Positions 51,610 to 56,833 of a stretch of DNA of 64,000 nucleotides are shown piece by piece. The translations under genes and the position numbers were made by a program. The notes beneath the pieces were generated by a model that was given only the letters and a program-made list of their open reading frames with translations, did no database searches and was not told where the DNA came from. Source of the stretch: Gemmatimonadota bacterium (GTDB taxonomy: Bacteria > Gemmatimonadota > Gemmatimonadetes > Longimicrobiales > Gaopeijiaceae); NCBI GenBank assembly GCA_030428885.1, contig JAUIEJ010000003.1:1-64000 (forward strand), read 5' to 3'. Position 1 is the stretch's first letter. Every line of letters begins with the position of its first letter.

Positions 51610-53340
51610 ATGTCCACGACCACGCCGGTCCTTCAACTCGGGGATCACCGCAGCCGCCGCGACCGGCGGCTCCGGAATACGCTCGCACTCCTGGAGTTCG
51701 ACGCGCGCCGCATGCGTCTGGCCTCCCAACTGGCCGACCTGCTGGGGCGGGTGGGGGGAGACCGGGGGGTGCTCGCCTGGGTCGACGAGTTCGATCCCGT
51801 GGCGCCCCGGGCCCACATCGTGGTGGACCTGCTCCGGGATCGACCCCGGCGGGAGCTCGAACTGGCCCCTCTCCTGGACGCGTGGGACCGGGGCGTGCCG
51901 GGCATCCTGGATCTGCCCGAGGCCCCGCGCCCCGGCCGGACCACTCCGGGCAGCCTCGCCGTGGTGTCTCTCGGCAGCGACGGACGGCGGGCCTGGTTCG
52001 CCCTGGTGGAGGGATCCCACCCGCGCAAACCCTTCTCCACCGCCCTCGTCGACGAACTGGCCTTCCGTTCTGGGGCCATCGCCGGTGAGTTGCTCCATCC
52101 CGAGGACGGAGAGGCCTTCGCCGGGTGGGGCGCCCTGGCCGGTGCCGCGGGCTCCGGCGACCCGGCGTCGGGAGAGCGCTCCACCGTGCGGTTCATGGTG
52201 CTGCGATTCCTCCGTTCCGCCCTGGCCGACGACCTGGTGCCGGACCCGGAGACCCTGGACGAACGGATCGATCTTCTGGGCGATGAAGTGGAGCCGTGGC
52301 GGGACGACCCCGAAGGCGCCGTGTGGGCCCGGGTCCTGGACGCCGTGGCCCACCGTCACCTCGACGAGCTCGAGTCGGCCTGTCACGACCTGGGGGCGCA
52401 GACCGCCGACGCCGGAGAACACGGGGCGGCGGTCGAGGCCTATCGGGCGGCCCACGAACTGGCGGTGGCGGTGGGCGACGTGGACGGAGCCGGGCGGGCC
52501 GCCCGGAGCCTGGGGCGCACCCACCGGAACGTCGGCGCCTGGGACGAGTCCGAATCGTGGTACACCACCGCGGTGTCCCTGGCCCGGGTCGCGGGCGACC
52601 TCGAGGCCGAGGCCGTGGCCGTGGACGGGTGGGCGAACACGCTCCGGGTGAAGGGGGCGTTCCCCCGGGCTCGGCGACTGCACGTGCGGGCGCTGGACCT
52701 CGCCCGGCGGTCGGGCTCGGCGTACGCGGTGGGGTCCGCGCACCACTCGCTCCTGACCCTGTCGGCCATGACCGGCGACCGGGATCAGGCGGTGGAACAC
52801 GGCTGGGCCGCCGTGGAATCGTACGCCGAGCCCCGGGACCAGTTGCGGGCGCTGGTGTCGGTGGCCGCTGCGCTCGTGGAGGCCGGCGACGCCGAGGTGG
52901 CCGAACGGGCCTACGCCGTGGCCCTTCGCCACGTGGTCGAGCCCTACTACCATCTCTTCGCCCTGGACGGATACGCCCACGCAGCGGCCCTGCAGGGCGA
53001 CCGCCAGGCGTATCTGGAGCGCACGGCGGCGCTGGACGCCGTCGACTGGCGCCCCGGGGGACCCGACTTCGAGGGCCAGGTCTACCTGTATCGGGGCCGG
53101 GCCTGGGCCCACCTCGGCGAGCCCGTCGAGGCCCGCCGCTGGTTCCGACGCGCGCTGGACTTCTCCGAGGCCCAGGGTCTCAGCCAGACCCTCTTCGCGG
53201 CCCAGGACGGGCTCGACACCCTGGACGCCGGCCACGCCCCCGCCGCCCGCCAGCCGGTATCCGGGGATGCGCGGTCGAGAGCGCGGGCATTCGACCGGCT
53301 CGAGCGGGCGGACCGGAGGCTGGCGGGCGTGGGCGGGTGA
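51610..53340 (+). CDS. Large TPR-repeat protein of unknown role
   Basis: 576 residues with no signal peptide. The first 240 or so are not recognised; they contain LEFDARRMRLASQLADLLGRVG and the segment VWARVLDAVAHRHLDELESACHDLG leading into repeats. From about 260 onward there are six to eight TPR pairs (AAVEAYRAAHELAVAVGDVDGAGRAARSLGRTHRNVG, DQAVEHGWAAVESYAEPRDQLRALVSVAAALVEAGDAEVAERAYAVAL, in part). It resembles TPR sensor parts of large regulators, but I see no DNA-binding domain, kinase or NB-ARC motif. It has its own promoter and a convergent lipoprotein gene five bases after its stop. Confidence 0.75.
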   Translation: MSTTTPVLQLGDHRSRRDRRLRNTLALLEFDARRMRLASQLADLLGRVGGDRGVLAWVDEFDPVAPRAHIVVDLLRDRPRRELELAPLLDAWDRGVPGILDLPEAPRPGRTTPGSLAVVSLGSDGRRAWFALVEGSHPRKPFSTALVDELAFRSGAIAGELLHPEDGEAFAGWGALAGAAGSGDPASGERSTVRFMVLRFLRSALADDLVPDPETLDERIDLLGDEVEPWRDDPEGAVWARVLDAVAHRHLDELESACHDLGAQTADAGEHGAAVEAYRAAHELAVAVGDVDGAGRAARSLGRTHRNVGAWDESESWYTTAVSLARVAGDLEAEAVAVDGWANTLRVKGAFPRARRLHVRALDLARRSGSAYAVGSAHHSLLTLSAMTGDRDQAVEHGWAAVESYAEPRDQLRALVSVAAALVEAGDAEVAERAYAVALRHVVEPYYHLFALDGYAHAAALQGDRQAYLERTAALDAVDWRPGGPDFEGQVYLYRGRAWAHLGEPVEARRWFRRALDFSEAQGLSQTLFAAQDGLDTLDAGHAPAARQPVSGDARSRARAFDRLERADRRLAGVGG

Positions 53341-53345
53341 TCGCG

Positions 53346-53483
53346 TCAGTTCCCGGTGGTGGGGAAGCCTTCGCACAGTTCGGGGTTCGTCTCGCAGTCG
53401 TCGTCCCCGGCCGTGGGGGAGCTGCATGCCGCGAAGGTGAGGGAGGCGACGAGCATCAGGGCCGACAGTCGGAAATACCGCAT
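53346..53483 (-). CDS. Small lipoprotein, 45 residues
   Basis: Start MRYFRLSALMLVASLTFAAC ends in a lipobox (FAAC, Cys 20). The mature part is only about 25 residues, with two further cysteines (DDDCETNPELCEGF) that may form a disulfide. A GGAG sequence lies about eight bases before the ATG. The frame is open further upstream, but a signal peptide right after the internal Met decides the start. Function unknown. Confidence 0.65.
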   Translation of the reverse strand: MRYFRLSALMLVASLTFAACSSPTAGDDDCETNPELCEGFPTTGN

Positions 53484-53623
53484 GGGGGTTCTCCAGGAGC
53501 AGGGATGGAAGAACAGCGTCTCGGTGCGACGCCTCGGAGTGTGCCCCCATGGACGGATCGGACGGGCATCGTTTCCGTCGTCGACTATGTCTTTTCCGAA
53601 CATGAACCCTTCGCGCCGCCGTC

Positions 53624-54424
53624 ATGGCCCTGACGGCCGTGGTGACGCGGGACCCCGAAGTGGAGGATCGTGCCCGGGCCGCTCTCGACCCGGATCGGCA
53701 CGACGTCCTCACCACCCGGACCCTCTCCTTCGCCCGGAGGCAGCTCCGGGAACGGCCCGTCTCGGCGCTGGTGGTGGACTCCCGCGAGCTTCCGGGATCG
53801 CCCCGGCGGGCGGCGGCGGTCCTCCAGGGGGTGTGGCGACAGTTCCCCTCGGTGCCGGTAGGGGTGCTGGCGTCGGCCCGGGAGCCGCTTCTGCTCCACG
53901 AACTCGGCGTGGTGGGGCTGCGCCATCTGGGCCTCCGGGAGGAGGGCGGCGCCCGGGCGTTTCGCCGGCTCCTCCTCGATCTGCTGGGTGAGGTCGCGGC
54001 GGCGCGGGTGGTTCGACACCTGTCTCCCGTGCTGCGGCGGACCCACGTCGACATCGTGCGGGCGGCGATGGATCTCACCCACCGCTGTCCGGGGGCCGAG
54101 GACTTCGCCGCCGAGTTCGGGGTCACCCGCCCCCACCTGAGCCGGGTGCTCCGGGAGGCGGGGCTGCCGTCGCCGGGCCAGCTCCTGGGGTGGGCCCGGA
54201 TGCTTCACGCGGGGCACTGGCTTCCGGATCCGGGCCGGTCGGGAGAAAGCGTGGCGCGTCAGCTCGAGTTCGCCAACGGATCGACCTTCCGCCGGTCCCT
54301 GCGAACGTACGTGGGTGTCACCCCCACCGAACTGGCGGCGTCGGGGGGGCTGGAGCGGGTGCTGAACGCCCTGGTGCAGGATACGGGACTCGCGGCGGCC
54401 TCTCCCGTCCAGCGGGTCGCCTGA
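53624..54424 (+). CDS. AraC-type transcriptional regulator with receiver-like N-terminal domain
   Basis: 266 residues. The C-terminal 110 form an AraC double HTH (AEDFAAEFGVTRPHLSRVLREAGLPSPGQLLGWARMLHAGHWL and VARQLEFANGSTFRRSLRTYVGVTPTEL, in part). The first 120 follow the receiver pattern: VVTRDPEVEDR, ALVVDSRELPG with Asp 52 where the phosphoacceptor would be, and VPVGVLASA for strand 4. The lysine of the usual YLxKP is missing, and only one or two acidic residues stand near the N-terminus, so it is probably a degenerate receiver. No kinase is adjacent. It precedes two small paralogous genes by one base. Confidence 0.82.
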   Translation: MALTAVVTRDPEVEDRARAALDPDRHDVLTTRTLSFARRQLRERPVSALVVDSRELPGSPRRAAAVLQGVWRQFPSVPVGVLASAREPLLLHELGVVGLRHLGLREEGGARAFRRLLLDLLGEVAAARVVRHLSPVLRRTHVDIVRAAMDLTHRCPGAEDFAAEFGVTRPHLSRVLREAGLPSPGQLLGWARMLHAGHWLPDPGRSGESVARQLEFANGSTFRRSLRTYVGVTPTELAASGGLERVLNALVQDTGLAAASPVQRVA

Positions 54425-54425
54425 G

Positions 54426-54650
54426 GTGCGGCGCTTCGACGACGACGAGGGCCGGAGTTGGGAGGTGGTGGCAGGGAGGGAGTCCTGGGGGGCCCTCTTC
54501 GCTATCTTCGTACCGGTGGCCGCCGGCCCCGACGTGCGGCAGGCCCCCCTGGTCGCGGCCTCGTACGAGGAGGCCGTCGCCCTCTTCGACCGCTTGGACG
54601 ACGGGGCGCTCCGGGATCTCCTGGCGCGCTCCGAACCCAAGCAGCTCTGA
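54426..54650 (+). CDS. Small conserved-looking protein, paralogue A
   Basis: 74 residues, GTG start one base after the regulator stop. It begins RRFDDDEGRSWEVVAGRESWGALFAIFVP and ends LFDRLDDGALRDLLARSEP. It aligns with the next gene over its whole length: both have R-x-FDD-x-x-GR-x-W-x-V at the start and a helix ending in LRxLL/RRRL. No known domain is visible. Probably cytoplasmic. I believe similar proteins occur in Gemmatimonadota, but this is memory, not a search. Confidence 0.75.
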   Translation: MRRFDDDEGRSWEVVAGRESWGALFAIFVPVAAGPDVRQAPLVAASYEEAVALFDRLDDGALRDLLARSEPKQL

Positions 54651-54681
54651 CCTCTCCACCGGCCCGGGGCCGGAGGGAACC

Positions 54682-54942
54682 ATGCGCGAGTTCGACGATC
54701 GGCAGGGACGGACCTGGGTGGCCACCGTGGCCGAGACCCGGGGTTCGGACTACAAGGGACGCTACCACCTGGTGATGCGGCCCCCCGACGGTGGCGACGC
54801 GGTGGAGCTGGTCGACGTGCGCTGGAATTCGGAGCGCACCGCGGCACGGACCCTCTCCACCATGTCGGTGGTGGAACTCCGTCGCCGGCTGCGCTCGGCC
54901 CGGGGCCGCAGTCCCGAGGGAGAGGCCGCCGGGGTCGCGTGA
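54682..54942 (+). CDS. Small conserved-looking protein, paralogue B
   Basis: 86 residues. MREFDDRQGRTWVATVAETRGSDYKGRYHLVMRPPDGGDAVELVDVRW, in part, looks like a small beta-sheet domain; then NSERTAARTLSTMSVVELRRRLRSARG is a helix. GGAGGG eight bases before the ATG is a strong Shine-Dalgarno. Its stop overlaps the aminotransferase GTG by four bases. The pair suggests a recent duplication or a heterodimer. Confidence 0.78.
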   Translation: MREFDDRQGRTWVATVAETRGSDYKGRYHLVMRPPDGGDAVELVDVRWNSERTAARTLSTMSVVELRRRLRSARGRSPEGEAAGVA

Positions 54943-56093
54943 CCGACCCGGTTCTGGATGCCTTCCGGCGCCGGGAGTACCCCGACGTCCCCGAGGTCCA
55001 CTTCGACTCCGCCAGCTACGGCCTGATCCCCCGGGTCACCGTCGAGGCGGTGACGTCCCTCACGGCCCGGAGGAACCGTCCGGGCGGGATTCCCGATCCC
55101 GAGCCCGGGGCGGCGCTACGCCGGGCCCGGGGCGCCGCGGCGCGCCTCCTGGGCGCCGACCCCGCCGAGATCTCCCTGGTTCCCAACACGACCTTCGGCC
55201 TCCACATCGGCGTGGCGCTGGTGGCGGCGGGGCCCCCGGGAGTGGTGGTGGTCTCCCAGGGCGAGTTCCCGGCCAACGTGCTCCCCTGGCTGGCCCTCCG
55301 GGATCGTGGCTTCGAGGTCCGGGTCGTCCCCCTGGCCGGCGACGTGCCCGACGAGGCCCGGTTGATGCGGGAGGCCCGCTCGGAAGAGGTGCGGGCCGTG
55401 AGCGTTTCGGCGGTGCAGTACGCCTCGGGGTTCCGGGTGGACCTGGGTCGCCTCGGTCGAGCCTGCGGGGAGGGGGGAACCTTGCTCGTGGTGGACGCCA
55501 TCCAGGCCCTGGGAACGGTGCCTCTGCGGCCGGCGGAGCTGGGCGTGGACGTCCTGGCCACCGGCGCCCAGAAGTGGCTCCTGGGACCCTGGGGCGCTGG
55601 GTTCGCCTGGGTGGCCCCCCGCCACCGCACCCGGATCCCCCCGCCGGTGGTGAGCTGGCTCTCGGTGGAGGGGGGCGGGGGCTACTCCACCCGGGACGGG
55701 TACGCCCTGGAGTTCCTGGGCGACGGCCGCCGCTTCGAGCCCGCCACCCTCGGAGTCCAGGACTACCTGGGGATGGCCGAGTCCCTGGAGGCGCTCCTGG
55801 ACCTGGGCGTGGACCGGATCCGGGCCCACCAGCAGAGCCTGCAGGGGCGGGTGTCGGCCTGGGCCCGGGGCCGGGGCGTGAAGATCGTGGGGCCGTCCCA
55901 TCCCGATGCCCGGGCGGGGATTCTCTCCCTCGCCCTGGAGGACGCCCCCGGAGCCCAGAGAGCCCTGGCCGGTGCGGGAATCCGGGCGGCGGTGCGGGAG
56001 GGGTGGCTTCGTCTCGCACCCCATCTCTACGTGGGCGAGGGAGAGGTGGAGCGGGCGCTGGCGGTCCTGGATGGAGTCGTGTCCGGGAGCTGA
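54939..56093 (+). CDS. Aminotransferase class V (PLP-dependent)
   Basis: 384 residues. It has VHFDSASYGLIPR at the N-terminus, PNTTFGLHIGVAL, VVDAIQALGTV with Asp about 186, and the Schiff-base Lys about 212 in ATGAQKWLLGPWGAGF. It belongs to the CsdA/NifS/isopenicillin-epimerase branch; the catalytic Cys loop of desulfurases is not visible, so a desulfurase role is not favoured. GTG start overlapping the small gene. With it and the regulator it makes a four-gene operon. Confidence 0.88.
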   Translation: MTDPVLDAFRRREYPDVPEVHFDSASYGLIPRVTVEAVTSLTARRNRPGGIPDPEPGAALRRARGAAARLLGADPAEISLVPNTTFGLHIGVALVAAGPPGVVVVSQGEFPANVLPWLALRDRGFEVRVVPLAGDVPDEARLMREARSEEVRAVSVSAVQYASGFRVDLGRLGRACGEGGTLLVVDAIQALGTVPLRPAELGVDVLATGAQKWLLGPWGAGFAWVAPRHRTRIPPPVVSWLSVEGGGGYSTRDGYALEFLGDGRRFEPATLGVQDYLGMAESLEALLDLGVDRIRAHQQSLQGRVSAWARGRGVKIVGPSHPDARAGILSLALEDAPGAQRALAGAGIRAAVREGWLRLAPHLYVGEGEVERALAVLDGVVSGS

Positions 56094-56152
56094 GTCGTCG
56101 ACCGGTCCCGTGGGCCCATGGAAGCGCCCGCGGCGGGGGCTCATCGTGCCCC

Positions 56153-56833
56153 ATGCACACCGATCACTCCGCCGTCGGGGCCGAGCGCCCCCGGGAACGC
56201 CTCCGCCGTCTGGGCGGCCGGTCGCTGGCCCTCCACGAATTGGTGGCCCTCCTCCTGGGCGCCGGCGTCCGGGGGGTGTCGGCGGTGTCGGCGGCCCACG
56301 GGATCGTCACCCGGGCGGGGGGGACCGTCCGGGGCCTGGCCCGAATGGGCCTGGAGGGGATGGCCGGGGTGGAGGGGGTGGGCCCGGCCCGGGCCGCGCG
56401 CCTCGTGGCGGCGCTGGAACTGGGCCGACGAGCCGCCGTGGAACGATCCGATCCGGGGGAGCGCATCCGGGGGCCCGCCGACGTCTGGCGCCGGGTGGGG
56501 CCGTCGCTCCGGGATCTGGATCAGGAGGAGTTCCACGCCCTGCTCCTGAACACCCAGCACCGGGTGGTGCGGGAGGTCTTCGTCACCCGGGGCATCCTGG
56601 ACGCCTCCCTGATCCACCCCCGGGAGGTCTTCCGCCCGGCGGTGGCCGCCGGGGCCGCCGCCGTGATCCTGGTGCACAACCACCCCTCGGGCGACCCGTC
56701 CCCTTCACCCGAGGACCGCGCCGTGACCCGACAGTTGGCCGGGGCGGGGCGGACCCTGGGCATTCCCGTTCTGGACCACGTCATCGTGGGGGACGGCCGC
56801 TGGGCCGCCCTCTCCGACGAGGGTCCCCTGTGA
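56153..56833 (+). CDS. radC: RadC/JAB-domain protein
   Basis: 226 residues. N-terminal helix-hairpin-helix region (LARMGLEGMAGVEGVGPARAARLVAALELGRR) and a C-terminal JAMM metalloprotease-like domain with HNHPSGDPSPSPED (His about 175 and 177, Asp about 188). All metal ligands are present. Despite the name, a role in DNA repair is not established for the family. It starts 60 bases after the aminotransferase. Confidence 0.92.
   Translation: MHTDHSAVGAERPRERLRRLGGRSLALHELVALLLGAGVRGVSAVSAAHGIVTRAGGTVRGLARMGLEGMAGVEGVGPARAARLVAALELGRRAAVERSDPGERIRGPADVWRRVGPSLRDLDQEEFHALLLNTQHRVVREVFVTRGILDASLIHPREVFRPAVAAGAAAVILVHNHPSGDPSPSPEDRAVTRQLAGAGRTLGIPVLDHVIVGDGRWAALSDEGPL

Follow-up and report, generated by a model that had tools for sequence, protein, structure and literature searches.

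We describe a small protein, S86, that occurs in nearly every member of its bacterial family and in most of the order, and that is absent from Pfam and NCBIfam. S86 is the constant core of its locus, kept across the order and nearly confined to it. We consider it probable that S86 and its neighbour S74 represent an undescribed small-protein family at a variable locus, where an AraC-type regulator gene (REG, often with a TPR-repeat protein gene) and a gene for a class V PLP enzyme (AT5) are recurrent but dispensable, and that S86 serves as an accessory binder and not as part of a sensor-effector unit.

The locus lies in the window (the whole stretch of DNA that was analysed, 64,000 nucleotides), from a Gemmatimonadota genome (G000) of 5.39 Mb in 23 contigs, the order being probably Longimicrobiales. 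The features are as follows.

51610-53340, + strand: gene for a TPR-repeat protein (PF13424, E 6.8e-12), upstream of REG and a frequent partner
53346-53483, - strand: gene for a tiny lipoprotein, divergent from REG
53624-54424, + strand: REG, AraC-type regulator, 266 aa, ATG start
54426-54650, + strand: S74, acidic small protein, 74 aa, GTG start, predicted beta4-alpha2 domain
54682-54942, + strand: S86, small protein, 86 aa, ATG start preceded by GGAGGG
54939-56093, + strand: AT5, class V PLP enzyme, 384 aa, GTG start
56153-56833, + strand: radC (NF000642, 208.6 bits against a cut-off of 180), a genus-level downstream neighbour

The four genes from REG to AT5 have the coordinates and the gaps (1, 31 and -4 nt) that were given in the initial annotation. 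The GTG of S74 is one base past the TGA of REG, S86 is preceded by a good ribosome-binding sequence (GGAGGG), and the AT5 start overlaps the S86 stop codon (GTGA). Given this close packing, the four genes are likely to form one operon with translational coupling, the transcript of which we infer. No sigma-70-type promoter or intrinsic terminator patterns were found in positions 53300-56300, such patterns not being informative for this phylum, and the only repeats at the locus were GC-rich chance pairs. A fifth gene in the same orientation, radC, lies 3' of AT5, as it also does in G042, G043 and G045, and the TPR gene is located 5' of REG in loci L046, L047, L049, L050 and L074. The divergent lipoprotein, seen directly in the sequence, has about 45 residues (MRYFRLSALMLVASLTFAACSS...) with the lipobox LTFAAC; its start is probably the internal ATG ahead of this lipobox, the start of the listed 85-aa open reading frame being too far upstream. 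It is weakly similar to a lipoprotein in L050.

Our survey covered 121 genomes of the window's own family (f1) and 395 genomes drawn from the phylum. We observed S86 in 103 of the 121 f1 genomes, representing 36 of 40 genera, and, among the 395 genomes, in 11 genomes of f2 and about 14 of f3 (most of the latter family), both of which belong to the same order; outside the order the 395 genomes gave two weak matches only. S74 was found in 22 genomes and adjoined S86 in 21 of these (21/121 in f1). At the loci of f1 and f2 that we read it precedes S86, and in f2 the two genes are adjacent in 7/7 loci read. In f3 they are apart from each other, with S74 often 3' of a TlpA-like gene and S86 located 23-147 nt 3' of an RNase D gene (assigned by PF01612 plus HRDC) in 11 of 12 called loci. 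Another family of the class, f5, has S74-type proteins as well; at three f5 loci (L210-L212) the S74-type gene is directly ahead of a SET-domain gene.

The start motif (MRRFDDDEGRSW / MREFDDRQGRTW) and the C-terminal helix that had been noted as common to the two small proteins are indeed present in both. Across genomes, S86 has the signature MREFxDxxGRxWxAxVxExxGxDYKGRxxLV...VxLxDVRWNSExTAxRTLxTMSxVELRRRLRSAxGR, and S74 the signature MRRFxDxxGxxWDVVVGRESWGxFxALFVP...RQxxL...ELxxLLxRSxP. Comparison of the S74 and S86 profiles with hhalign gave a probability of 97.2% (E 4e-11, 76 columns), and the S74 profile recovered S86 in G000 (E 1.1e-4, or 3.2e-7 with a broader profile) as well as in dozens of other genomes. 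With respect to profile homology and shared predicted fold, S74 and S86 are thus confirmed as true paralogues of a common family, and the earlier suggestion that they are duplicates is borne out; profile searching found them related to each other. The two proteins have different charges. The mean net charge of S74 is about -5, and S86 is basic in f1 and f2 (means of +2.4 and +2.0, respectively), where its C-terminal helix is basic; the f3 S86, which lacks the DYKGR and RWN motifs, has a mean of -0.3. The charge of S86 was the same in genomes with and without S74, so nothing indicated that the two form an obligate heterodimer through charge pairing, and that proposal was rejected.

AlphaFold2 models predicted the same order of strands and helices, beta4-alpha2, for S86 (E2-5 E11-18 E28-33 E41-48 H51-60 H63-74, pLDDT 77) and for S74 (E2-5 E11-18 E24-30 E38-41 H47-56 H59-67, pLDDT 92.6). 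The inputs were three-row alignments, each of which included the other paralogue, so the agreement in fold is not fully independent. Neither protein could be placed in a described family, as the initial annotation had supposed. There was no convincing Pfam match among 24 S86 and 17 S74 sequences, no NCBIfam or PHROG match for the S74 and S86 of the window, and no solved relative by sequence in the PDB. Foldseek searches of both models against the PDB, and of the S74 model also against viral models, returned nothing at E<=0.001; PADLOC gave generic domain matches only; the viral contigs scanned contained no relative of the small proteins; and we found no description of such a family in the literature searched. 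For both models the top VIA-align 2 match was to the C-terminal repeats of topoisomerase I (Toprim_C_rpt; 6pcm), with Z 4.5 and rmsd 2.2 over 51 residues for S74 and Z 3.8 and rmsd 2.7 over 52 for S86, which are Z values in the range of common arrangements. Homology to these repeats had no support from sequence, as hhalign of the S74, S86 and superfamily alignments against 23 repeats gave probabilities of <1%. The PUR-alpha repeats (beta4-alpha), compared by fold only, have a strand order similar to that of S74 and S86, with weak Foldseek rows (3nm7 and 3n8b, E 1.5-3.8) and a VIA Z of ~3. DUF1508 (YegP), for which only 7 domains were compared, reached an hhalign probability of 2.6% at best and likewise had no support from sequence.

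A broadened S74 profile gave near full-length matches, with E between 1e-3 and 6e-6, in genomes of f4, f5, f7 and f9, and the enlarged profile found members that were not in its build (for example in G124, 2.3e-19, and G132, 8.9e-17). Features that these sequences mostly have in common are a W about 10 residues in, a strand in the centre reading LxF or similar, an Arg that precedes the fourth strand and, at the end, an (S/D)xxxLxxLLxxSxP helix. Of the representatives searched, nine against Pfam and eight against NCBIfam, none had a convincing match. This weaker evidence, with its modest E-values, suggests that S74 and S86 belong to a Gemmatimonadota-wide small-protein superfamily absent from both collections. 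Two further copies are present in G000, at C10:181392-181616 (L248) and C13:280281-280505, and tandem pairs are found repeatedly in f9 and f7. A broader proposal, which we put forward tentatively and consider less likely than not, is that S74 and S86 represent two lineages within an undescribed beta4-alpha2 superfamily that spans the phylum and has several paralogues per genome, often in tandem, which would be general accessory or regulatory modules sharing one binding chemistry and a fold not previously seen. Several superfamily members have distinctive surroundings. The C10 copy has two such neighbours, a DnaJ-like gene and an MnmA-like gene encoded on the opposite strand; at L190, L195, L201, L206 and L209, tandem pairs (about 78 and 63-90 aa) are followed by an NAD-dependent epimerase-like gene; and in f4 and f5 (L191, L197, L198, L203, L205 and L214-L219) a related VTQYDRDEF-type small protein is encoded in a conserved cluster, flanked by a 2-oxoacid dehydrogenase E2-like gene region on one side and by a PHP-domain gene on the other.

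REG had been described as a receiver-like AraC regulator with an Asp at the phosphoacceptor place and without the usual Lys. Its C-terminal helix-turn-helix, at residues 162-237, matches HTH_18 (PF12833) with 50.8 bits against a cut-off of 33.6 (E 2.1e-13), and is the part that REG has in common with AraC/XylS regulators; REG differs from these in its N-terminal region, which is degenerate, receiver-like and without a profile match. The alignment agrees with this: Asp52 is present in the window REG, and its N-terminal region contains no Lys at all. The receiver itself was not detected, there being no Response_reg match in Pfam even at E<=1, and the Asp is not invariant: it is found in 5 orthologues and replaced by His in L047. 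The acidic pair is missing, represented by a single D10 that is not conserved in orthologues. From its sequence, the N-terminus can be regarded as a degenerate receiver at best, and a mechanism driven by phosphorylation is unlikely.

AT5, by its sequence, is a PLP enzyme of the class V aminotransferase fold, in agreement with its first assignment: it matches PF00266 (103.1 bits, E 2.1e-29), and the PLP lysine, K212, is invariant in 12 orthologues, as are D186, H362 and R353. It shares PF00266 and this lysine with the SufS/NifS cysteine desulfurases, cysteine/cystine C-S lyase, EgtE and kynureninase, and the solved proteins nearest to it in sequence belong to the cysteine desulfurases (6wci, E 1e-20). 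Unlike SufS/NifS-type enzymes, AT5 has no conserved C-terminal Cys; the widely conserved Cys176 (11/12) is upstream of the PLP lysine. It also falls far under every NCBIfam equivalog cut-off, and for these two reasons cysteine desulfurase (SufS/NifS/IscS or DndA/SspA) was rejected as its identity. Kynureninase was rejected on a KYNU_C score of 23.7 bits against a cut-off of 27.

The small genes lie in DNA of 74% GC with many long overlapping frames at the locus, as might be expected if they were spurious open reading frames. We regard that explanation as exceedingly improbable. S86 is conserved at 50-71% identity across the 103 family genomes, and changes per codon between G000 and G043 are concentrated at position 3 (0.53, compared with 0.20 and 0.23 at positions 1 and 2); by these two measures S74 and S86 are not chance frames, and conservation at the protein level in 36 of 40 genera is already sufficient to refute the proposal. 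Being small, adjacent and opposite in charge (S74 acidic, S86 basic), they would also suit a toxin-antitoxin-like pair, which we judge highly improbable, as the two proteins have the same predicted fold and a common ancestry, S86 is near-universal in the family and occurs without S74 in most genomes, and neither protein was convincingly matched in PADLOC or PHROG.

Two further explanations concern the neighbours of S86. In f1 the order is c4/EamA, TPR and REG, S74, S86, AT5, DacB and FAD oxidase, of which TPR-REG, S74 and AT5 are optional and the other genes vary too. The initial annotation had combined the four genes into a sensor-effector unit, in which a receiver-like REG would sense a signal and the small pair and AT5 would respond, and the neighbourhood does recur in other genomes. 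The tight packing of the genes is consistent with such a unit. REG matches were found at E<=1e-18 in 25/121 f1 genomes (24/121 without G079, whose one weak match is located elsewhere), and in most genomes carrying REG it is just 5' of S74 or S86; REG and AT5 co-occur above expectation (8 shared; Fisher p 0.0035, with genomes treated as unrelated). However, all four genes are found together in only 2/121 f1 genomes (G000 and G043), S74 shows no association with either REG (p 0.56) or AT5 (p 0.15), the receiver region is without a profile match and its catalytic residues are not conserved. S86 is near-universal regardless of the other genes, and the one-contig genome G042, of the same genus, has neither S74 nor S86 that we could find. 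There (L222), REG ends in RVA*, its stop codon and the start codon of AT5 overlap (TGATG), and radC follows. In the AT5 tree, which has a genus clade (100/98) and an f2 clade (99/98), the sister of G000 is G042 (91/93) and G043, having all four genes, is outside, a position from which it follows that S74 and S86 were lost in G042. As REG and AT5 persist there, the small pair is not needed for their persistence, and S86 is not essential in that organism. By these criteria the sensor-effector proposal did not hold up, and we now think it quite improbable. The main rival to our reading is that S86, alone or together with S74, acts as a translationally coupled regulatory or delivery subunit of AT5. 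AT5 is present in 16/121 f1 genomes, 14 of them S86-bearing, and in these 14/14 it is directly 3' of S86; chance would give this at ~1e-5 per genome, so the linkage is real. The same order occurs in two f2 genomes, and 4-nt overlaps of S86 and AT5 are seen in the window, L069 and L073. Yet 89 of the 103 S86-bearing f1 genomes are without AT5 at the threshold used, and AT5 is kept without S86 in G042 and in G045, where AT5-radC remains and REG, S74 and S86 were not found. We judge a subunit role unlikely.

In the reading that we prefer, S86 would be a small accessory binding protein. S74, its acidic paralogue, is generally the next gene on the 5' side when a genome of f1 or f2 has it, and lies apart in f3; it may be a diverged copy with a different or competing partner; through co-transcription with REG, the dose of S74 and S86 may follow the REG signal. 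The most likely partner of S86, though still a doubtful one, would be RNA or an RNA-handling protein, a first choice suggested by the proximity of RNase D in f3 and by the C-terminal helix, which is basic in f1 and f2. The indications for this link consist of a single gene neighbour in one family and of charge; against it, the f3 S86 beside RNase D is not basic and has neither the DYKGR nor the RWN motif. The suggestion that the locus contains an undescribed system is retained with respect to the small-protein family, which is unnamed, and not with respect to REG and AT5, which are only occasional neighbours at a variable locus. Should the wider superfamily hold up, a phylum that has received little study would prove to carry many small proteins without annotation, and S86 would be a good entry point, having a strict motif and a natural loss, in G042, that displays the locus without it.
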